A stretch of 64,000 bases of DNA from Venatoribacter cucullus (GTDB lineage Bacteria; Pseudomonadota; Gammaproteobacteria; Pseudomonadales; Oceanobacteraceae). Within the stretch, counting starts at the first letter, position 1, and each line of letters starts with the position of its first letter. Made by a program: the position numbers and the translations under genes. Of the stretch, positions 4,583 through 62,602 are shown piece by piece. The DNA lies in NCBI RefSeq assembly GCF_016132445.1, contig NZ_CP046056.1, positions 2,604,501 to 2,668,500 of the forward strand, given 5' to 3'. The notes beneath the pieces were generated by a model. That model ran no database searches and was not told the origin of the DNA. It worked only from the letters and a program-made list of their open reading frames with translations.

Positions 4583-5512
4583 ATGAATAAACCGCAATTT
4601 ACCACCGCGATGCTGCATCCCCGTTATTGGATTCTGTGGTTTTTTATCGGCTGCGCCGCGGCAATTACCCGGCTGCCTTACCGCTGGCAAATCAGCATCG
4701 GAAAATATTTTGGTTTGCTGCTGCATAAAATCGCCCGCAGCCGCCGTCATGTAGCCGAAGTGAATATCCGCTTATGCTTTCCGGAGCAATCACCGGCGGA
4801 GCAGGCACAGCTGGTGCGGCAGATTTTTATTGATAACGGCATTGGGTTTATGGAAACCATGATCAGCTGGTTCCGGGCCCCTGATTATCTGCTGCCCATC
4901 TGCCGTATTAACGGCCTGGATAAACTGCAGGCTGCACATGCTACCGGCCGCGGCGTGCTGATTCTGGGCGGGCATTTTTCTATGCTCGATCTGGCCGGCA
5001 CCCTGGTTGGTAATCACGCGACCGTCAGCATTACCTATAAGCCCCAAAAAAATGCCGTGCTGAATTTCATTATGAAACGCGGCCGCTCGCGCACTTATAA
5101 GAACCAGTTTGTCAGCAAAGATATCCGCGGCATGATGCGCGCCCTGAAACAAGGGGATGCCGTGTGGTACGCACCGGATCAGGATTTCGGCCCGGACAAC
5201 AGTGTCTTTGCCCCGTTTTTTGGTGTGCCGACGGCAACCCTGACAGCCACCTCGCGCATAGCCAAAGCCGGTAATGCGGTGGTTATTCCCACCAGCTTTT
5301 TCCGCTTACCGGGAAACACCGGCTACGAAATCAATTTCTTTGATCCACTGCCGATTCCGGGAGAAAGTGACGAAGCCGATGCGGTGGTGGCGAATCAGTT
5401 TCTGGAGCAGCAAATACGCCGTTATCCGAGCCAGTATTTATGGCTGCATAAGCGCTTTAAAAGCCAGCCGGGGGAAGCGGGGGAGCGGGGAAGGTTGTAT
5501 CAACGTCGTTGA
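4583..5512 (+). CDS. lpxL: Lipid A late acyltransferase, LpxL type
   Basis: An LpxL/HtrB-family acyltransferase, 309 residues, that adds a secondary acyl chain to Kdo2-lipid IVA at the inner membrane. The N-terminus (FTTAMLHPRYW) and a hydrophobic segment at about 16-30 match LpxL closely. The catalytic HX4D motif is present (H131, D136 in GGHFSMLD), as are WYAPDQDFG and the C-terminal QYLWLHKRFK. An AAGG ribosome site precedes the ATG. It follows hldE by 24 bases and is probably co-transcribed. LpxP or LpxM assignment is less likely but cannot be excluded by eye. The stop codon lies inside the palindrome at 5508-5588. Confidence 0.9.
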   Translation: MNKPQFTTAMLHPRYWILWFFIGCAAAITRLPYRWQISIGKYFGLLLHKIARSRRHVAEVNIRLCFPEQSPAEQAQLVRQIFIDNGIGFMETMISWFRAPDYLLPICRINGLDKLQAAHATGRGVLILGGHFSMLDLAGTLVGNHATVSITYKPQKNAVLNFIMKRGRSRTYKNQFVSKDIRGMMRALKQGDAVWYAPDQDFGPDNSVFAPFFGVPTATLTATSRIAKAGNAVVIPTSFFRLPGNTGYEINFFDPLPIPGESDEADAVVANQFLEQQIRRYPSQYLWLHKRFKSQPGEAGERGRLYQRR

Positions 5513-5588
5513 GGGTTAGGCGTTCATGGTTCAGCGGGCTCGGAGAAAATATCAGTGCTCGCTGAACGCTGAACCCCCAACGCTCAAC
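5508..5588. repeat. Heptad palindrome element, copy 1
   Basis: Two 29-base arms (5508-5536 and 5560-5588) form an imperfect inverted repeat (24 of 29 positions pair) around a 23-base loop. Each arm is four 7-base units of consensus GTTNRGS, ending in GCG or G(G/A)GC. The stop codons of both flanking convergent genes (TGA at 5510-5512 on plus, TGA at 5584-5586 on minus) are inside the arms. The same architecture occurs at 40860-40935 and 59710-59794. It would make a strong hairpin on either strand; a terminator role is plausible. Confidence 0.85.
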
Positions 5589-6084
5589 CTGCCGCCTGCA
5601 TCACCCTTAAATAGGTTTCCTGCAGCACTTTCACATCATTAGCCGCGCGGTGGCGGTTAACGCCTTCCTGCTGTTGCCACAGCATTTCTTTGGTGTCGTG
5701 CCACACTTCCATTTGCTCCGGCGTCAGCAGTTTGTTGATGGTTTCTATGCGGAAGCGCTGCACTAATTCGGCTTCGTCGAACAGGCGCGCCAGCCACGAA
5801 CTGTCGAAACTCCAGGCGTCTGAATACAGCACTTTTCCGTACAGTAATTCGTTCATAATCAGGGCGATTTCGCGCGGGGTTTTGCCTTCGCGCTGCAGCA
5901 GTTCACGGGAAATGCCGTGCACCTGTTCGGCGTCGTCACTCCAGTGATCCCAGCCCGCCGGGGGTTTGATCAGAAAGCTGTGTACCAGCCGGTCTTCCAG
6001 CGCAAAGCCTACCTCAATCGGGTAACTGCCACGGCCGAACCCTGAGGCTTCCAGATCAATAATGGCAGGTAGGCTGTTGCTCAC
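5584..6084 (-). CDS. DEDDh-type 3'-5' exonuclease domain protein
   Basis: A 166-residue protein with the ribonuclease T / DnaQ exonuclease fold. Exo I is IDLEASG (Asp and Glu metal ligands) at residues 9-15 and Exo III is HRAANDVKVL near the C-terminus, the HxAxxD pattern of the DEDDh group. I choose the GTG at 6084 because an AAGGGA ribosome site precedes it by 8 bases and the domain begins at once; a TTG at 6162 would add a Gln/Gly-rich leader that looks non-coding. Substrate unknown. It converges on lpxL and lies downstream of the GspE-like gene. Confidence 0.82.
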   Translation of the reverse strand: MSNSLPAIIDLEASGFGRGSYPIEVGFALEDRLVHSFLIKPPAGWDHWSDDAEQVHGISRELLQREGKTPREIALIMNELLYGKVLYSDAWSFDSSWLARLFDEAELVQRFRIETINKLLTPEQMEVWHDTKEMLWQQQEGVNRHRAANDVKVLQETYLRVMQAAG

Positions 6085-6201
6085 CGGTTTTATCCCTTGC
6101 TGTTGTTTTTGCCCGCTCTGGCCGGTTTGTCCACTTTGGCCAGGCGCTGATTGTAACCGCAATTGACCGGTTTGTGTTGGCCACCGCGCTCAGCGCCCGG
6201 A

Positions 6202-20942: not shown

Positions 20943-21506
20943 ATGCTGAACCGTCGTCATTTCCTGCGCCAGGCAGCCTGCCTGGGTGCGGCCGGGGTTG
21001 CCGGCCTGTCTTCCGCACCATTACTGGCTCAGCCCCAGAGCGGAATGACAGATCAGGCCGAACGCACGCTGCGGGTGTACAACATCCATACCGGCGAATA
21101 CCTGACCACCACGTTCTGGGCCGACGGCCAGTATCAGGATGAGGAAATTCAGGCACTGGATTTATTATTGCGCGACCACCGTGCCAATCAGGCCATGGCC
21201 ATGCAGCGCGAACTGTATGAAAAGATGTTCCATCTGCAGGAGCTGTTCAGCAGCCGCGAACCACTCTATGTTATTTCCGGCTACCGCTCACCAGGCACCA
21301 ATTCCGGTTTGCGCCAGGTAAGTAACGGCGTGGCCGAAAACAGTCTGCATATGCAGGGCCGCGCGGTGGATATCCGTATTCCCGGCGTGTCGCACCGGCA
21401 TCTGCACAAAGCCGCGCTGGCCATGCGTTCCGGTGGCGTGGGGTATTACCCGAAGAGTGGTTACATTCATCTGGATACCGGCCGCGTACGCAGCTGGACG
21501 ATATAA
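20943..21506 (+). CDS. MepK/YcbK-family (DUF882, M15-like) peptidoglycan endopeptidase
   Basis: A 187-residue exported protein. The N-terminus MLNRRHFLRQAACLGAAG is a twin-arginine signal (RRHFL) ending near residue 30 (LLAQP). The M15-type zinc site is visible as SLHMQGRAVDI (His and Asp ligands) and the late IHLDTG (His ligand), plus SGYRSPGTN. E. coli MepK (YcbK) cleaves 3-3 crosslinks made by L,D-transpeptidases, and here too the gene follows an LdtD-like gene by 138 bases, so a make-and-cut pair is likely. Confidence 0.9.
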   Translation: MLNRRHFLRQAACLGAAGVAGLSSAPLLAQPQSGMTDQAERTLRVYNIHTGEYLTTTFWADGQYQDEEIQALDLLLRDHRANQAMAMQRELYEKMFHLQELFSSREPLYVISGYRSPGTNSGLRQVSNGVAENSLHMQGRAVDIRIPGVSHRHLHKAALAMRSGGVGYYPKSGYIHLDTGRVRSWTI

Positions 21507-21520
21507 GTTAGGCGTTCAGC
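21507..21520. repeat. Half heptad element between convergent genes
   Basis: Two complete 7-base units, GTTAGGC and GTTCAGC, fill the space between the stop codon of the MepK-like gene (21504-21506) and the ptsP end; the ptsP stop (minus-strand TGA at 21516-21518) lies inside the second unit. This equals half an arm of the palindromes at 5508, 40860 and 59710, with no facing arm. Confidence 0.6.
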
Positions 21521-39560: not shown

Positions 39561-39592
39561 AATGCCAACATCTTCCGTAGAGTGTTGGCATT
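39561..39592. promoter_or_regulatory. Perfect inverted repeat upstream of the acyl-CoA operon
   Basis: AATGCCAACA (39561-39570) and TGTTGGCATT (39583-39592) are perfect 10-base arms around a 12-base centre, ending 23 bases before the acyl-CoA dehydrogenase ATG. It could be a repressor operator (TetR/LacI style) or a leader hairpin; no regulator gene lies beside it. Confidence 0.55.
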
Positions 39593-39615
39593 ACTCAGAC
39601 CCCAGGAGAGCCACG

Positions 39616-40839
39616 ATGGATTTTCAGCATTCCCCCAAAGCGCAGGACTTCCTGAAGCGCGTTAAAGACTTCATGAAAAACGAAATCGAGCCGGTGGAAG
39701 AAGCCTACCTGCGCGAACTGCACAGCCTGGATAATAAATGGGTGGTACTGCCCATCATCGAAGAGCTGAAAGCCAAAGCCAAAGCCGCCGGCCTGTGGAA
39801 TATGTTTCTGCCCGATGAACATTACGGTGCCGGCTTAAGCACGCTGGAATACGCCGCCGTCGCCGAGCTGACCGGCCGCTCCTTTATTGCCCCGGAAGTG
39901 TTTAACTGCAACGCACCGGATACCGGTAATATGGAAGTGCTGGAAAAATACGGCAGCCCGGAGCAACAGGAACAATGGCTGAAGCCACTGCTGGCCGGTG
40001 AGATCCGCTCCGCCTTCTGCATGACCGAACCGGGCGTAGCCTCCTCCGACGCCACCAATATGGAAGCCACCGCCATTGTTGAAGGTGACGAAGTGGTACT
40101 GAACGGCCGCAAATGGTGGAGCACCGGCGTCGGCCATCCGAACTGCAAAGTCGGCATCTTTATGGCCCTCACCAACCCGGACGCCCCGCGCCACCAGCAG
40201 CATTCCATGGTGCTGTTTCCGTTCGATGCCCCGGGCGTAAAAATTGAGCGCATGCTGCCGGTATTCGGTTACTACGACGAACCTTACGGCCACGGCGAAG
40301 TAAGCTTTACCAACGTGCGCGTACCAGTCTCCAACATCATCGCCGGCCCCGGCCGTGGGTTTGAAATCGCCCAGGGCCGCTTAGGGCCAGGCCGTATTCA
40401 CCACTGCATGCGTTTAATCGGCATGGCCGAAAAAGCGCTGGAGCTGATGTGCATCCGCGCCGCCAGCCGCACGGCTTTCCACAAGCCGCTGATGAATTTA
40501 GGTGGCAACCGCGACATCATCGCCAACGCCCGCATGAACATCGAACAGGCGCGCCTGCTGGTATTCAAAGCGGCGTGGATGATCGACAAAGTCGGTGCCA
40601 TGGGCGCCATGAGCGAAATTTCCCAGATCAAAGTCATCGCCCCCAACATGGCGCAGCAGATTATTGATGCTGCCATGCAGATGCACGGTGGTGGTGGTTT
40701 GTCTGACGACTTCCCCCTCACCGGCCTGTTCACCGCCGCCCGCGCCCTGCGCCTGGCCGACGGCCCGGACGAAGTGCACCGTGGCCTGATCGCCAAGCTC
40801 GAGATGATGAAATATAAGAAGTATATGAAAGAGGCGTGA
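39616..40839 (+). CDS. Acyl-CoA dehydrogenase, ACAD10/11-like
   Basis: A 407-residue flavin acyl-CoA dehydrogenase. Recognisable parts are [21 protein letters not shown] (FAD/substrate loop), the middle beta domain (NGRKWWSTG), [19 protein letters not shown], and the C-terminal [19 protein letters not shown] flavin motif. Length and the paired phosphotransferase gene (41870) fit the ACAD10/11 group, whose members handle 4-hydroxyacyl-CoA after phosphorylation. The ATG at 39616 has a CAGGAG ribosome site; an upstream in-frame start at 39562 lies in the inverted repeat. First gene of a five-gene run. Confidence 0.88.
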
Positions 40840-40859: not shown

Positions 40860-40935
40860 GTTCAGGGTTAGGCGTTCAGCGTTAGGCGTGCTTTGGAGTT
40901 TAACTCCGACCGCACTGAACCCCTAACCCCCAACC
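40860..40935. repeat. Heptad palindrome element, copy 2
   Basis: Left arm 40860-40891 is four 7-base units (GTTCAGG, GTTAGGC, GTTCAGC, GTTAGGC) then GTGC. The right arm 40912-40935 reads back as GTTGGGG, GTTAGGG, GTTCAGT. Between them a perfect inner hairpin GGAGTT-T-AACTCC (40896-40908). It sits 20 bases after the acyl-CoA dehydrogenase stop and 97 before the next gene of the same operon. Confidence 0.85.
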
Positions 40936-41031
40936 TATGATTTGGCACTATCGCCCCTTAACAGGCCATTCGTAACAGAATAATAATCAGCGGCAGACAC
41001 ACTGCCGCTTATGCATTTTTGAGGAGTCCCC

Positions 41032-41868
41032 ATGAATAAGGTATTAATCACCGGTGCCGCCAGCGGCCTGGGCCGGGCACTGGCTTTACGCTACGCCCGC
41101 GAGGGCGCGGCTATCTGCATCGCCGACATCAACATGGGCGGCGCGGCTGAAACCCTGAACATGGTGGAAAGCGCCGGCGGCAGCGGCTGGATTTATGAGC
41201 TGGACGTGCGCAGCGAAGCCAACTGGAACGCACTGCGCGACGAAGTGATAAAGCGCTGGAATGGCATCGACCTGGTGATTAACAACGCCGGCGTGGCCAC
41301 CGGCGACCGCATCGACGCCGGCGACTGGGAATGGTGGAACTGGATCATCGACATCAACCTGAAAGGCGTGGCGCTGGGTTGCCGCACCTTTACCCCACTG
41401 ATGAAACAGCAGGGCAGCGGCGCGTTTATTAACGTGGCGTCACTGGCCGGATTATTGAAAGCGCCGTCCATGGCATCGTACAACGCCACCAAAGCCGCGG
41501 TGATTGCCATTTCTGAAACCATGCATTTTGAACTGCTGCCTTACGGCATTAACGTTACTGCGTTGTGTCCTGGTTTTTTCCGCACCAACCTGAATCACGG
41601 CATGAAAACCTCCGACCCGGATATGCTGAAATTCGTCGACAAAGTGTTTGAAGCCTCGGCACTGGATGCCGACGATATTGCCGATGCAGCTTATAAAGCG
41701 GTGCAAAAAAATCAGATGATCTGTAACCCGCACCCGGTCGGTCGCCGCACTTATTTTATTAAGCGTTATTTACCCTTCCTGTACCGTCAAGGCGTGCTCA
41801 AAATGGCTGAAGGCCTGAAAAAACGTGAAGACCAGCGCCGGGCATTTAAAGAAGAAAAGGACAGCTGA
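41032..41868 (+). CDS. Short-chain dehydrogenase/reductase
   Basis: A 278-residue classical SDR: TGAASGLGRALALR (NAD(P) loop, residues 7-20), NNAGVA, catalytic Ser in NVASLAGLL and YNATK (Tyr/Lys pair). The extended C-terminus (about 225-278, KRYLPFLYRQGVLKMAEGLKKREDQRR) is basic and may touch membrane. Probably oxidises or reduces a hydroxy/keto acyl intermediate of the operon. GAGGAG ribosome site. Its stop is one base before the next gene. Confidence 0.88.
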   Translation: MNKVLITGAASGLGRALALRYAREGAAICIADINMGGAAETLNMVESAGGSGWIYELDVRSEANWNALRDEVIKRWNGIDLVINNAGVATGDRIDAGDWEWWNWIIDINLKGVALGCRTFTPLMKQQGSGAFINVASLAGLLKAPSMASYNATKAAVIAISETMHFELLPYGINVTALCPGFFRTNLNHGMKTSDPDMLKFVDKVFEASALDADDIADAAYKAVQKNQMICNPHPVGRRTYFIKRYLPFLYRQGVLKMAEGLKKREDQRRAFKEEKDS

Positions 41869-44457: not shown

Positions 44458-44468
44458 TACTACACCTC

Positions 44469-44553
44469 GTTCCCACGCTCCCGCGTGGGAATGACCCCGC
44501 ACAACTCGTTCCCACGCTCCGGCGTGGGAATGCCACCGCTCCCGCGTGGGAAC
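44469..44553. repeat. Tandem GTTCCCACGC hairpins
   Basis: Two complete hairpins, TTCCCACGC-4 bases-GCGTGGGAA, at 44470-44491 and 44509-44530, and a third unit (44536-44553) that keeps only the GCGTGGGAACGA half. The units share flanking CTCG and ATG. They fill the gap between the convergent acyl-CoA operon and gdhA. I recall similar sequences scattered in other proteobacterial genomes, without a firm name. Confidence 0.85.
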
Positions 44554-44621
44554 GATCCGGTTGCCAGCCATTCAGGCAGGCATCAGGCAGCGGCCGGTAA
44601 ACCAGCCACTACCAGGGTGGA

Positions 44622-58817: not shown

Positions 58818-58848
58818 CCCGCCAATTTTTTTGCTTACAGGCCTTGTT

Positions 58849-59703
58849 ATGTCCGTTACCGCGACCGTCAGCGAAACGCTGTACCCGGGTTATGCCCAGA
58901 CCTTTACCGTTGAAAAAGTGCTGTTTGAAATCAAAACTGAACACCAGCATCTGCAGATTATTGAAACCCCCTTTATGGGCCGCGTGATGCTGCTCGATGG
59001 CGTGGTGCAAACCACCGAACGCGATGAATTTATTTACCACGAAATGATGGTGCACGTGCCGCTGTTCGCCCACCCGAACCCTAAGCGCGTACTCATTATC
59101 GGCGGCGGTGACGGCGGCATTCTGCGCGAAGTGCTGAAGCACAAAAACGTTGAGCACGTTACCCAGGTCGAGATCGACGGCAGCGTGATTGACATGTGCA
59201 AAGAGTATTTCCCCAACCACTCCGCCGGTGCCTATGACGACCCGCGCGCCACCATCGTGATTGCCGATGGCAAAGAATTTGTGGCGCAGTGCCAGGACAC
59301 TTTCGATGTGATCATTGCCGATTCCACCGACCCTATTGGCCCGGCCGAAGTGCTGTTTACCGCCGACTTTTATAAAGACGAAAAAACCTGCCTGAACCCT
59401 GGCGGCATTATGGTGGCGCAGAACGGCGTGCCCTTTATGCAGGGCCAGGAAGTCACCAACACCTTCCAGCGCCTGAGCAAGCTGTACCGTGATGCCAGCT
59501 TCTATGTGTCACCGGTGCCGACCTACATCGGCGGCCTGATGGCACTGGCCTGGGCCAGCGATGACGCCAGCCTGCGTCAACAAAGTGCAGACGTCATTCA
59601 GCAACGCATCGACCGCGCCGGCTTCCCTACCCGCTTCTACAACGCCGACGTTCATGTGGCCGCGTTTGCGCTGCCGAACTATATTCGCGCGTTGATGGTT
59701 TAG
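58849..59703 (+). CDS. speE: Polyamine aminopropyltransferase (spermidine synthase)
   Basis: SpeE moves an aminopropyl group from decarboxylated SAM to putrescine. The 284-residue enzyme has LLDGVVQTTERDEFIYHEM, the nucleotide loop IIGGGDGGILREVLKH, VEIDGSVID and the catalytic IIADSTDPIGPAEVLFT. ATG at 58849 is used; a TTG at 58831 lies next to the -10. No speD is in the window. Confidence 0.95.
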   Translation: MSVTATVSETLYPGYAQTFTVEKVLFEIKTEHQHLQIIETPFMGRVMLLDGVVQTTERDEFIYHEMMVHVPLFAHPNPKRVLIIGGGDGGILREVLKHKNVEHVTQVEIDGSVIDMCKEYFPNHSAGAYDDPRATIVIADGKEFVAQCQDTFDVIIADSTDPIGPAEVLFTADFYKDEKTCLNPGGIMVAQNGVPFMQGQEVTNTFQRLSKLYRDASFYVSPVPTYIGGLMALAWASDDASLRQQSADVIQQRIDRAGFPTRFYNADVHVAAFALPNYIRALMV

Positions 59704-59709
59704 TTTTCT

Positions 59710-59794
59710 GGTTGAGGGTTGGGCGTTAAGCGTTGGGCGTGCTGCGGAAATGATCACCGGGCACGCAGAACCCTGAACGCCTAACCTTGAACGC
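59710..59794. repeat. Heptad palindrome element, copy 3
   Basis: Arms of about 33 bases (59710-59742 and 59761-59793/4) pair at 25 of 33 positions around an 18-base loop. The left arm is GTTGAGG, GTTGGGC, GTTAAGC, GTTGGGC then GTGC; the right arm reads back as GTTCAAG, GTTAGGC, GTTCAGG, GTTCTGC then GTGC. It lies between speE and cyaA, both on plus, and its end supplies a TTGAAC that could act as -35 for cyaA. Confidence 0.85.
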
Positions 59795-59824: not shown

Positions 59825-62602
59825 ATGACAACCGCATCCCGCACCAGCATCGCTCCACAGCAGGTCATTCAGTGGCACAGCAACTTTCTGCAACTGAATC
59901 AGGCCCGGCTGGATGCTGCCCGCAGTTTGCTGCTGCCACGTCAGCAACTGGTGCTGGACGTACTGCCGTTATTGCTGCACCTGAACCATCCGCGCCTGCC
60001 GGGCTTTGTCGATTTCCGCACCGCTGCCGGTATCCGTAATTACTCACCCACCCAGCAACAACTGCAAAGTTTGCAGGCGCTGGCCCGTGGCGTGCAGATT
60101 CCGCGTGGCAGTGGCGGTGGTGATATTCTGGGTCTGTACCTGATGGGCAGCATCGGCTCGCTGGCGCAGGCGCGCAGCAGCGATCTGGATATGTGGCTGT
60201 GCCACGATGAAACCCTGCCTCCCCAGGCACTGGCAGGCCTGCAGCAAAAATGCCAGTTGCTGGAGCGCTGGGCCGCCGAACAGGGCATCGAGCTGCACAT
60301 TTTCCTGATGAATTTAACCGAGTTCCGCCAGGGCCAGAACCGCTCAGCGGAAGGTGAAGACTGCGGCACCACCCAACACCTGCTGCTGCTGGACGAGTTT
60401 TACCGCAGCGCCGTGTGGCTGGCCGGCTGTATGCCGCGCTGGTGGCTGATTCCCAATCAGGAAGAACGCAATGCCGACCGTTTCTGGCAACAGCTGGCCG
60501 ACCAGCACCGCGTCAACCCGGTGCAATGGCTGGACTTCGGCGCCATTCCCGCCATTCCACCGGCTGAATTTATCGGCGCCGGTCTGTGGCAACTGAATAA
60601 AGGCCTGTCCGACCCCTACAAATCGCTGCTGAAGCTGCTGCTCACCCGCCATTACGCCAGCCAGTATCCGGTCATCCGGCCGCTGTGCTGGGACCTGAAA
60701 GAACAGGTTCACAACGGCAATATTGAGCTGCAACCCAACGACGCCTATTTGCTGCTGCTGCGGCGCATTACCCAGCAGCTGGAACAGGAAGGCAATCCGG
60801 AACGGGTACAGCTGGCACGGCGGGCGTTATACTTTAAAGCCCAACTGCCCCTCAGCCAGCTTGGCCCCAGCCAGCGCAGCAGCTGGCGCACCGCCGTGCT
60901 GCAGGCACTTTGTCACGACTGGGGCTGGCAGGATGCGCAACTGGCCGAGCTGGATGCCCGCCCGCACTGGAGCCCGCAGCGCATCGCCAGTGAGCGCAAC
61001 TCGCTAATCAGCGAAATGCTCAGCAGCTACCGGTTTTTGTCGGCCTTCAGTCAGAAATACGCACCGCGCCTGCACATCAGTAAACAGGATATGCAAAGCC
61101 TGGGTAATCAGCTGTACGCCGCGTTCGACAACCGGCCCGGCAAAATTGTAAACATTAACCCCGGCATCAGCCCGTCGCTGGCACAGGAAAAAATCACCCT
61201 CAACCTGCAGCAGGATATCTGGCAGCTGATTCCGGGGCTGGTCAATCCAGTCACCGACAGCCTGCGGCCGGACCATATCCTGAAACAGTCGCCCAGCCTC
61301 ACCGAGTTACTGTGCTTTGCCCGCCTTAACGGCCTACTGCAGGATCACACCCGCATCGCCCTGTACCCGCAGCACAACCCGCTCAGTGCCTACGAACTGA
61401 AACAGATTTTGCAGGTGGTACAGGGTATTCAGCCGCCACAACCCGACCACGCCGACTTCCTGCAACCGGCGCAGCCGCTGCAATGGCACCTGCTGGTAAA
61501 CGTCGGCGTTGACCCCCAGCATCATCTCAGCCGGCTGGGCATGCAGAAAATCAGCAACCGTGACGATGCTCTGGGCTTCAGCGCCGCGCGGGAAAATCTG
61601 GTGCTGACCATTGACCTGGTTACCCTGAACAACTGGGGGGAATGGCAGGTAGAACGCTTTAGCGGCGATGCCTGCCTGCTGCATTGTCTGCAACATCTGC
61701 TGCAGCATTTACCCAAAGTCGCCGAGCAGGGCTGGCCGCAGTGGCAGGTGCATTGCCATTGCGCCAGCCGCGCTGCGGCCATTCGCCACCGGGTCGAACA
61801 GGTGCTGCAGGATGTGCTCGGTCATTTTGTCGAACAGCCACGCTCGCCTTACCTGCTGGAAGTGGCAGAATGCTATTACCTGCTGGAAAACACCCGTCGC
61901 GGCGTCGAACTGCGCATCGCCGATACGCCAATGAAACTGCTGGCGTTGCTGCAGCGGCCGGCGCGCTCGTTTATTCAGTACACCCTCGACCGCTCAGCGC
62001 TGCAGAACAGCCCGCTGCAGCTGATTTTTTCCCACAGCAAAGCTGGTCTGTGGCAACTGTTTTACTGGCGCAAAGACGGCCGGCTGTATTTTTATTTTCT
62101 CGATGAAAAGGGCGTATTGCTGCACCAGCAATGGCCAGACACCAGCTCCGACCCGCACAGCCTGCCGTGGTTATTACCGCTGCTGCGCTTTCTGCGCCAG
62201 CTAGACCAGCGCTGGCAACGCCTGAACGGCCGCAGCCAGGAACGCAAAATAATGCTGTGGGAACTGCGCCGCAAAGCGCAGAGTTTTGACTTTGAAATTG
62301 CCCGCCGGCGCCTGCCCGAACTGGCCGCCCAGACCACCAGCATCGACCTGCGCGCCGTCCTCAACAGCCAGCAACAGGCCACGCTGTACTGCAACGGCCA
62401 GGAATTTAACAGCTGGGAATACGGCAGCGACCTCTACCCGGCCGTTATCCGTACCGTACAGGCGTTGCGCAGCAGCCATGGTAATTACCCACTGGCACTC
62501 AGTGATCTGGAACTGCCCGACAACCAGAACATCATCACCCACCTGCAAATCCGTCAGCGCTTGGAAAACCGGCTGGCGCAGGCCCAGCAAGACGCCGGAT
62601 AG
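59825..62602 (+). CDS. cyaA: Class I adenylate cyclase
   Basis: A 925-residue class I (enterobacterial-type) adenylate cyclase making cAMP from ATP for CRP control. The N-terminal catalytic domain shows LYLMGSIGSLAQARSSDLDMWLCHD (nucleotidyltransferase GS and Asp pair, about residues 100-124), KCQLLERWAAEQGIELHIFLMNL and LLLDEFYRSAVWLAG. The C-terminal half is the usual regulatory region. The length is somewhat longer than the E. coli protein. Paired functionally with cpdA at 49159. Confidence 0.94.
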   Translation: MTTASRTSIAPQQVIQWHSNFLQLNQARLDAARSLLLPRQQLVLDVLPLLLHLNHPRLPGFVDFRTAAGIRNYSPTQQQLQSLQALARGVQIPRGSGGGDILGLYLMGSIGSLAQARSSDLDMWLCHDETLPPQALAGLQQKCQLLERWAAEQGIELHIFLMNLTEFRQGQNRSAEGEDCGTTQHLLLLDEFYRSAVWLAGCMPRWWLIPNQEERNADRFWQQLADQHRVNPVQWLDFGAIPAIPPAEFIGAGLWQLNKGLSDPYKSLLKLLLTRHYASQYPVIRPLCWDLKEQVHNGNIELQPNDAYLLLLRRITQQLEQEGNPERVQLARRALYFKAQLPLSQLGPSQRSSWRTAVLQALCHDWGWQDAQLAELDARPHWSPQRIASERNSLISEMLSSYRFLSAFSQKYAPRLHISKQDMQSLGNQLYAAFDNRPGKIVNINPGISPSLAQEKITLNLQQDIWQLIPGLVNPVTDSLRPDHILKQSPSLTELLCFARLNGLLQDHTRIALYPQHNPLSAYELKQILQVVQGIQPPQPDHADFLQPAQPLQWHLLVNVGVDPQHHLSRLGMQKISNRDDALGFSAARENLVLTIDLVTLNNWGEWQVERFSGDACLLHCLQHLLQHLPKVAEQGWPQWQVHCHCASRAAAIRHRVEQVLQDVLGHFVEQPRSPYLLEVAECYYLLENTRRGVELRIADTPMKLLALLQRPARSFIQYTLDRSALQNSPLQLIFSHSKAGLWQLFYWRKDGRLYFYFLDEKGVLLHQQWPDTSSDPHSLPWLLPLLRFLRQLDQRWQRLNGRSQERKIMLWELRRKAQSFDFEIARRRLPELAAQTTSIDLRAVLNSQQQATLYCNGQEFNSWEYGSDLYPAVIRTVQALRSSHGNYPLALSDLELPDNQNIITHLQIRQRLENRLAQAQQDAG

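Follow-up and report, generated by a model that had tools for sequence, protein, structure and literature searches.

Opposed rows of GTTNRGS heptamers as a dispersed family of gene-end palindromes in Venatoribacter cucullus

In the genome of Venatoribacter cucullus, a dispersed family of palindromes has been found in which rows of the degenerate heptamer GTTNRGS face each other across a short core, and which lies with a strong excess at the ends of genes. The interest of the family resides in the combination of opposed, inward-facing rows, an address at stop codons, recurrence in unrelated genomes, and arms that are less complementary than expected by chance. We infer, giving this reading somewhat less than an even chance, a REP-like family of gene-end hairpins whose heptamers turn over in place and which may have been retained as a bidirectional 3'-end element. 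One small genome here offers about fifty defined places for testing the function of a seven-base repeat, and further test sites are the orthologous gene ends of relatives, which bear another unit or a plain terminator.

The analysis has been centered on a stretch of 64,000 nucleotides (the window; G000:C1:2604501-2668500 within the 2,827,114-base genome), whose copies and neighboring genes are compiled in Table 1. Copy 1 (5508-5588) consists of [GTTNRGS]x4, a 25-base core and opposed [SCYNAAC]x4, which confirms the heptamer palindrome recognized in an earlier, sequence-only reading. As that reading had also stated, the stops of both convergent neighbors fall inside the arms: within the first unit, bases 3-5 are the lpxL TGA (5510-5512), and the last unit contains the stop of the minus-strand neighbor (5584-5586). 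The LpxL-type identity of the first gene has held, whereas the exonuclease label of the second has fared less well, with no Pfam match at E<=0.001 and a score of 16 bits (E 0.0044) against the NCBIfam DEDDh exonuclease model, whose cut-off is 389. The claim that copies 2 and 3 have the same four-unit arms has been retained for copy 3 (4:4; borders 59711-59792 here, 59710-59794 before), whereas in copy 2 only three right units are clear. The three copies have predicted folding energies between -34 and -44 kcal/mol and z-scores between -4.9 and -8.0 (five foldings), copy 1 reaching -43.6 kcal/mol and z -8.0 against 200 dinucleotide shuffles. The half copy at 21507-21520 is located between convergent genes 9 nt apart, and an exact two-unit partner arm has not been found nearby. 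A search of the window against Rfam has given no match above the gathering score, in line with the earlier reading, which knew no named element of this layout.

Table 1. Coordinates of the heptamer elements in the window and of their neighboring genes
Feature	Positions	Strand	Remarks
Lipid A acyltransferase, LpxL type	4583..5512	+	PF03279, E 3.1e-68; terminates within copy 1
Copy 1, left arm	5508..5535	+	GTTGAGG GTTAGGC GTTCATG GTTCAGC
Copy 1, core	5536..5560	.	25 nt, GGGC...GCTC
Copy 1, right arm	5561..5588	-	minus-strand reading GTTGAGC GTTGGGG GTTCAGC GTTCAGC
Gene labelled exonuclease in the earlier reading	5584..6162	-	terminates within copy 1; family support weak
Two-unit half GTTAGGC GTTCAGC	21507..21520	+	directly after stop of ORF 20943-21506
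Acyl-CoA dehydrogenase	39562..40839	+	upstream neighbor of copy 2
Copy 2 (model match)	40860..40941	.	left units x4 40860-40887; clear right units x3 40914-40934
Short-chain dehydrogenase	41032..41868	+	downstream neighbor of copy 2
Spermidine synthase	58831..59703	+	PF01564; upstream neighbor of copy 3
Copy 3, left arm	59711..59738	+	GTTGAGG GTTGGGC GTTAAGC GTTGGGC
Copy 3, core	59739..59764	.	26 nt, GTGC...GCAC
Copy 3, right arm	59765..59792	-	minus-strand reading GTTCAAG GTTAGGC GTTCAGG GTTCTGC
Class I adenylate cyclase	59825..62602	+	PF01295; downstream neighbor of copy 3

Throughout the genome, the exact two-unit pattern has yielded 195 matches as compared to 3 for the reversed pattern, and the two-arm pattern 79 as compared to 0 (overlapping matches, both strands counted). 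A scan for the 4:4 form has detected 27 copies in 224,132 own-genome bases, i.e., in stretches picked around pattern matches, and none in each of 10 local shuffles. The loose scan of the window alone, in which two mismatches are allowed, has remained near chance (77 matches vs. a shuffle mean of 63, with 7 of 100 shuffles reaching 77), and the signal therefore resides in the exact matches. With a covariance model, a search which the sequence-only reading had proposed, 104 matches at E<=1 have been obtained on both strands of the 2.83-Mb genome; the E-values are rough, and the 17 copies of the training set match by construction. Model matches and pattern clusters, merged by hand, amount to about 53 places, 48 of which have E<=1e-3 and five of which are weaker (2278054, 1650450, 1000086, 861542, and 2577911), so that the postulated dispersed family has been borne out. 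This number is a lower bound, because 150 of the 1357 candidates were scored, and it excludes two-unit halves such as that at 21507-21520.

The standard form consists of opposed GTTNRGS rows, most commonly with four units per arm, around a core GNGC...GCNC of mostly 25-27 bp. In 14 of the 27 copies of the 4:4 scan, the units are heterogeneous, mismatches are few and the core measures 25-27 nt; over all 27 the core extends from 19 to 32 nt, partly owing to register shifts. Within selected own-genome stretches, 24 array pairs face inward and none outward. At 326393, 2274766, 2737114, and 2786246 a homogeneous heptamer row substitutes for one arm, with a mirrored arrangement at 2693941, and in the copies at 845210 and 864512 other repeats of the type GTAGGAGCGGCATTTTTGCCGC sit between the arms. 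Over 200 units from 25 copies, weak ones included, the bases G, T, T, and G at positions 1, 2, 3, and 6 are present in 94, 96, 90, and 88%, respectively, and position 4 is variable (C 84, G 59, A 48, T 9). As had been supposed, the heptamer rhythm is the conserved feature. The copies themselves are diverged, with a mean pairwise identity of 0.61 and a best value of 0.78 among 17 82-mers, local BLAST matches reaching 83% identity. Their slot-wise similarity of 0.465 nevertheless exceeds the 0.407 found after shuffling units inside arms (0/300 shuffles), which points to some common origin or copying and not to a purely local origin.

The elements are strongly concentrated at gene ends, which extends to the whole family what copy 1 had suggested. 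Most copies follow stop codons directly, on one strand or the other. Based on gene calls from a home-made codon-usage caller, not a published one, 41 of the 53 places have a stop codon no more than 25 nt away; 34 are located between tandem, 18 between convergent and only 1 between divergent genes, while the window overall comprises 35 tandem gene pairs and 10 each of convergent and divergent ones. The stop is nearer than the start in 26 of the 34 tandem copies, and both stops are found within 25 nt in 10 of the 18 convergent ones. Among tandem pairs with room, 25 of 33 copies have the upstream stop at a distance of 25 nt or less, whereas 2000 runs of random placement in the tandem copies' own spacers have given a mean of 13.7 and a largest value of 22. 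A called stop codon is overlapped by the element at 10 of the 53 places, at eight of them by 4-5 bases, and about eight of the 53 copies have an outer unit that provides the stop or overlaps it. Moreover, the copies close on average 5.05 of the six reading frames vs. 3.81 in mononucleotide shuffles (19 copies), and all six in 6 of 19, since seven is not a multiple of three and the unit can hold TGA, TAA or TAG.

Selection on pairing of the arms, which had been proposed from the first three copies, has found no support. Swapping right arms between copies has led to folds of greater stability than those of the real arms, in all 60 swaps performed with the full set of 25 copies and in 100 of 100 at each of three quality cut-offs (11, 16, and 19 copies). 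For the inner two units of the 19 copies from this genome, matching at the variable positions is 0.439 in the real arms vs. 0.536 (p=0.006); in the genomes G413, G418, and G415 together (33 palindromes), it is 0.581 vs. 0.654 (p=0.0011). The deficit is weak in G414 (0.564 vs. 0.616, 13 copies, p=0.12) and over the whole set of G412, G414, and G416 (27 copies, p=0.18), and it is absent from the inner units of G412 (0.742 vs. 0.733, 11 copies) and from the outer units of this genome (0.404 vs. 0.420). In a pooled test stratified by genome, 0 of 10,000 permutations have been as low for all 79 copies, and a share of 0.0004 for the 60 copies of the other genomes. Unit position 5, regarded relative to transcription, has given no signal (G:U vs. 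A:C, 8 vs. 10). Covariation in support of an RNA stem has been rejected, as the variable positions do not covary and the result is the opposite. The arms thus tend away from perfect complementarity rather than keeping it; they seem to avoid pairing perfectly, which would be expected if a perfect palindrome were unstable in DNA or if long double-stranded RNA were attacked.

In either transcript, the arms are predicted to form a long, regularly mismatched hairpin, which may be kept as a bidirectional 3'-end element, i.e., as a termination aid or as a barrier protecting the mRNA 3' end, and which in places may stand in for a canonical terminator. Of the hallmarks of intrinsic termination, a stable predicted hairpin downstream of the stop is present, but a U-tract directly after it is lacking, and no T excess has been observed beyond the element edges (2.2 and 2.3 T per 10 nt vs. 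2.05 expected). Canonical terminators outside the element, called by a simple rule of our own, have been found at 6 of the 50 ends that bear an element vs. 31 of 84 others (Fisher p=0.0024), a contrast that depends on omitting terminators which overlap the element (13/49 vs. 34/95 with these included). A canonical terminator is present alongside some copies, e.g., those at 2491000, 2523303, 2601266, and 2688621. At the copy-1 junction, the genus mates G002 and G003 have a canonical terminator at the site of this genome's element; at the copy-3 junction, a hairpin is common to G001, G002, G004, and G007. In 2.0 Mb of G002, terminators have been counted at 10 of 21 element-orthologous vs. 9 of 30 other junctions (p=0.25), this genome's own at 6 of 21 vs. 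12 of 30 (p=0.55), and a terminator in G002 that is absent here at 6 element and 3 other junctions. Replacement of terminators at orthologous junctions is suggestive at copy 1 and overall not significant. At the orthologs of 2718749, 2719129, and 2737104 the relative's genes are merely 52, 40, and 7 nt apart; a strong terminator would split likely operons there and be costly, and the element looks like an addition. The specialized terminator suggested by the sequence-only reading is possible, the scarcity of terminators at element ends and the copy-1 junction speaking for it indirectly and the coexisting terminators, the closely spaced genes and the non-significant contrast at orthologous junctions against it.

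The distribution of the family is patchy on all sides. The three-unit pattern has been found in 5 of 44 family genomes (own included), with 104 matches here and 1-4 in each of the four others, and is nearly absent from the eight genus mates. The genome measures 2.83 Mb at 99.64% completeness, and these genus mates are much larger (3.9-4.4 Mb). The two-arm pattern, sought in 369 genomes of the class with this one among them, is restricted to this genome and one place in G360. A four-unit scan of 84,980 species has returned at least 116 stretches from many phyla, mostly single arrays; among the matches listed, inward pairs within 150 bp occur in 13 of 116 and outward pairs in 3 of 116. In each of seven genomes chosen for such loci, including Comamonas, Caenimonas, Limnohabitans, and Hydrogenophaga, the two-arm pattern matches 7-35 times per strand with overlaps counted, and reversed controls have none; a pattern counting each palindrome once has given 11, 13, and 3 in three of them. 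GTTNRGS-type palindromes recur in some Comamonadaceae. With one palindrome per locus (34 loci, one without a palindrome), a stop lies within 25 nt of 13 of 17 palindromes in G413, 8 of 12 in G418, and 4 of 4 in G415, and 3, 2, and 0, respectively, are inside a called gene; in G418, 4 of 12 are located between divergent genes. In the family of G413, the pattern has been encountered in 3 of 120 genomes, G413 included. In a Comamonadaceae MAG (L059 968-1055) and in Limnohabitans (L077 4305-4434), heptamer palindromes follow near-identical flanks, and the site looks shared.

Among the genus mates, the copy-3 genes adjoin in 8 of 8, with spacers of different length and some 460 nt of extra sequence in G006. 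The copy-1 genes are at most 640 nt apart in 5 of 8 (G001, G002, G003, G005, and G006), whereas their distance is about 2 kb in G004 and G007 and about 11 kb in G008. Spacers at least 50 nt longer than in G002 have been found at 9 of 21 element junctions vs. 5 of 30 others, and several element spacers are no longer than the relative's.

Several of the G002 spacers orthologous to elements carry rows of another unit, e.g., GTCTGAC GCCGGAC GTCAGAC, and the ortholog of 326393 reads GCCGGAC GTCAGAC GTCGGAC GTTAAGC ATCAGAC GTCGGAC. Rows of at least two GTTNRGS units occur only twice in 1.2 Mb of G002, and rows of at least three units of the broader GYYNRRS nine times in 2.0 Mb (reversed control 1). 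Five of these nine are situated in the 21 element-orthologous spacers, which total 2,724 nt, one in the other 30 spacers and three elsewhere; the nominal probability of five in nine is below 1e-7 for an even distribution over intergenic DNA, assumed to be 10-15% of the genome, in a test that is partly post hoc, GYYNRRS having been chosen after inspection of 14 of the 21 spacers. Per junction, the difference amounts to 5 of 21 vs. 1 of 30 for rows of at least three units (p=0.07) and to 7 of 21 vs. 4 of 30 for at least two (p=0.16), and in a fresh 0.8 Mb of G002, with a narrower unit fixed beforehand, to 1 of 7 vs. 0 of 8. GYCNGRC as a large dispersed G002 family has been rejected (two-unit rows 14 vs. 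11 reversed in 1.2 Mb; single motifs not enriched). These data are suggestive of site and rhythm outlasting the unit sequence between this genome and G002. In an extended version that we consider unlikely, gene-end heptamer hairpins would be old and general: site and 7-bp rhythm would persist while the unit turns over in concert per genome (the GTTNRGS of this genome and the GYCNGAC-like unit of G002 both being forms of GYYNRRS), a reader protein acting in trans or a copying process would set the unit, and the arms would be held off perfect pairing.

For the origin of the arrays, the absence of Y1_Tnp, the divergence of the copies, their homogeneous expansions and the occurrence of further period-7 arrays favor turnover in place, in which heptamer rows would arise and change by gain, loss and homogenization and not by RAYT transposition; the homogeneous expansions within copies suggest that heptamers have been gained there. 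A rival account, possible but not likely, dispenses with function altogether and assumes a tendency to 7-bp tandem repeats, due to slippage in a 7-nt register, that is tolerated at gene ends away from promoters and coding sequence. It is consistent with a period of 7 in 9 of 24 intergenic arrays outside the elements (one being a half copy of the GTTNRGS family) vs. 0 of 49 genic ones in selected own-genome stretches, and with heptamers being, in the available part of one survey, the commonest intergenic tandem repeats in many prokaryotes, their function without clue (PMC6344855). Slippage by itself, however, yields no inverted arms, and it explains neither the exclusively inward orientation here (at least 13 inward and at least 3 outward elsewhere, among the 116 matches listed) nor the preference of tandem copies for the stop beyond random placement, nor the 88-96% conservation of unit positions 1-3 and 6 in 25 copies while neighboring positions vary. 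A MITE-like, non-autonomous mobile hairpin moved by a non-RAYT transposase and spared only at gene ends would account for the patchy distribution, abundant here and nearly absent from the eight genus mates, for the slot-wise similarity and for the excess of lengthened spacers relative to G002 (9/21 vs. 5/30); as near-identical copies are missing (best 0.78 among the 17 82-mers, local BLAST up to 83%), unit numbers vary between copies and several spacers do not exceed the relative's in length, we regard this as decidedly unlikely.

Mobilization by RAYT, as in REP/REPIN families, is a very improbable origin, even though these also are short extragenic palindromes mostly near stop codons. The head of REP sequences is a GTAG-type motif, which is absent from the arms. 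The linked RAYT-type transposase that the sequence-only reading had suggested looking for has not been detected: the Y1_Tnp model (PF01797) has 0 matches in the 99.64%-complete genome, whereas the same search has been positive in 5 of 14 control genomes. An identity as integron attC sites, whose outer order is RYYYAAC...GTTRRRY, has been rejected, as the order here is opposite (24 inward GTT..AAC pairs, 0 outward). A plasmid origin has likewise been dismissed, positions 5490-5610 being without a match in 72,556 plasmid records. The strong consensus per unit without covariation of the arms would also fit an array of binding sites for a protein reading 7-bp direct repeats (for the nucleoid, segregation or as a DNA-uptake signal), with the gene end as a secondary feature, and inverted uptake signals do double as terminators in Neisseria and Pasteurellaceae; yet uptake signals generally number at least 1,000 per genome, to judge from the part of that source available (PMC1852404), and the roughly 53 places known here make this quite improbable. 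A G-quadruplex element comparable to the Xanthomonas GGGAATC heptamers has next to no probability: homogeneous GTTGGGC arrays satisfy the G3N4 rule, but a G3+N1-7 motif on either strand is present in only 6 of 53 copies.

Dispersed heptamer rows, often inverted near stops, are already known, and the features that seem new are the opposed GTTNRGS rows, their anti-complementarity, and a possible turnover of the unit. The closest parallel is formed by the heptamer repeats GGGAATC / GGGGA(C/T)T of Xanthomonas and Nostoc, with 186 arrays and 70 cases of close inverted pairs in Xcc, according to the consulted sections of the source (Rehm et al. 2015, PMC4692102). The same sections describe further common traits, namely intergenic arrays with four units favored, near stop codons on the sense strand and few between divergent genes, as well as sites shared by two species with changed length and sequence. 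The Xanthomonas and Nostoc units form G4 structures, whereas the present unit is GTTNRGS and not the G4 unit GGGNATC, the G4 motif being confined to the 6 of 53 copies mentioned; unlike there, as far as these sections go, the standard form here is an opposed pair with about 26 nt of core in between. The statement of the sequence-only reading that it knew no named element with this layout is to be qualified in view of this parallel, although none with the GTTNRGS unit has been found. Geobacter metallireducens harbors 49 dispersed elements of four tandem heptanucleotides, which resemble the GTTNRGS family in these respects and differ in their unit GGACCGG, in occupying genic sites too and in being presented as predicted regulatory RNA elements (PMC2700814, in part). 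REP/REPIN systems with RAYT likewise comprise dispersed extragenic palindromes, inverted pairs and hairpins (PMC3116915, in excerpt), from which the present family is distinguished by the lack of Y1_Tnp, by its heptamer-built arms and by its high divergence. Uptake-signal terminators share the inverted pairs of short repeats and the gene-end hairpins, but, in the portion available, have a T-rich tail and a short conserved signal (PMC1852404), whereas degenerate rows without a T-tract are found here. The TAACTGA repeats of Beggiatoaceae are also dispersed intergenic heptamers with a patchy occurrence across phyla; they are, as far as the accessible text describes them, direct repeats of one unit mostly just upstream of starts (PMC4679880). 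In the open-access literature, no description has been found of the GTTNRGS palindrome, of the anti-complementarity or of unit turnover at orthologous ends.

Other repeats have been noticed alongside the family. At 44462-44555 of the window, TTCCCACGCTCC-type units are repeated both in tandem and in inverted orientation, and k-mers similar to these units (CTCCCACGCT) are enriched in G002 as well. At 845210, 864512, and 514993 of the own genome (L170, L171, and L166), REP-like GTAGGAGCGGCATTTTTGCCGCGA repeats occur, some of them between heptamer arms, with RAYT undetected, and a compound of similar kind is present at G001:C31:167177. Finally, a GACGCTG heptamer array of 35 copies has been observed at 2738505-2738753 of the own genome (L191), along with smaller GCTTGAG and GACGGGA arrays elsewhere.
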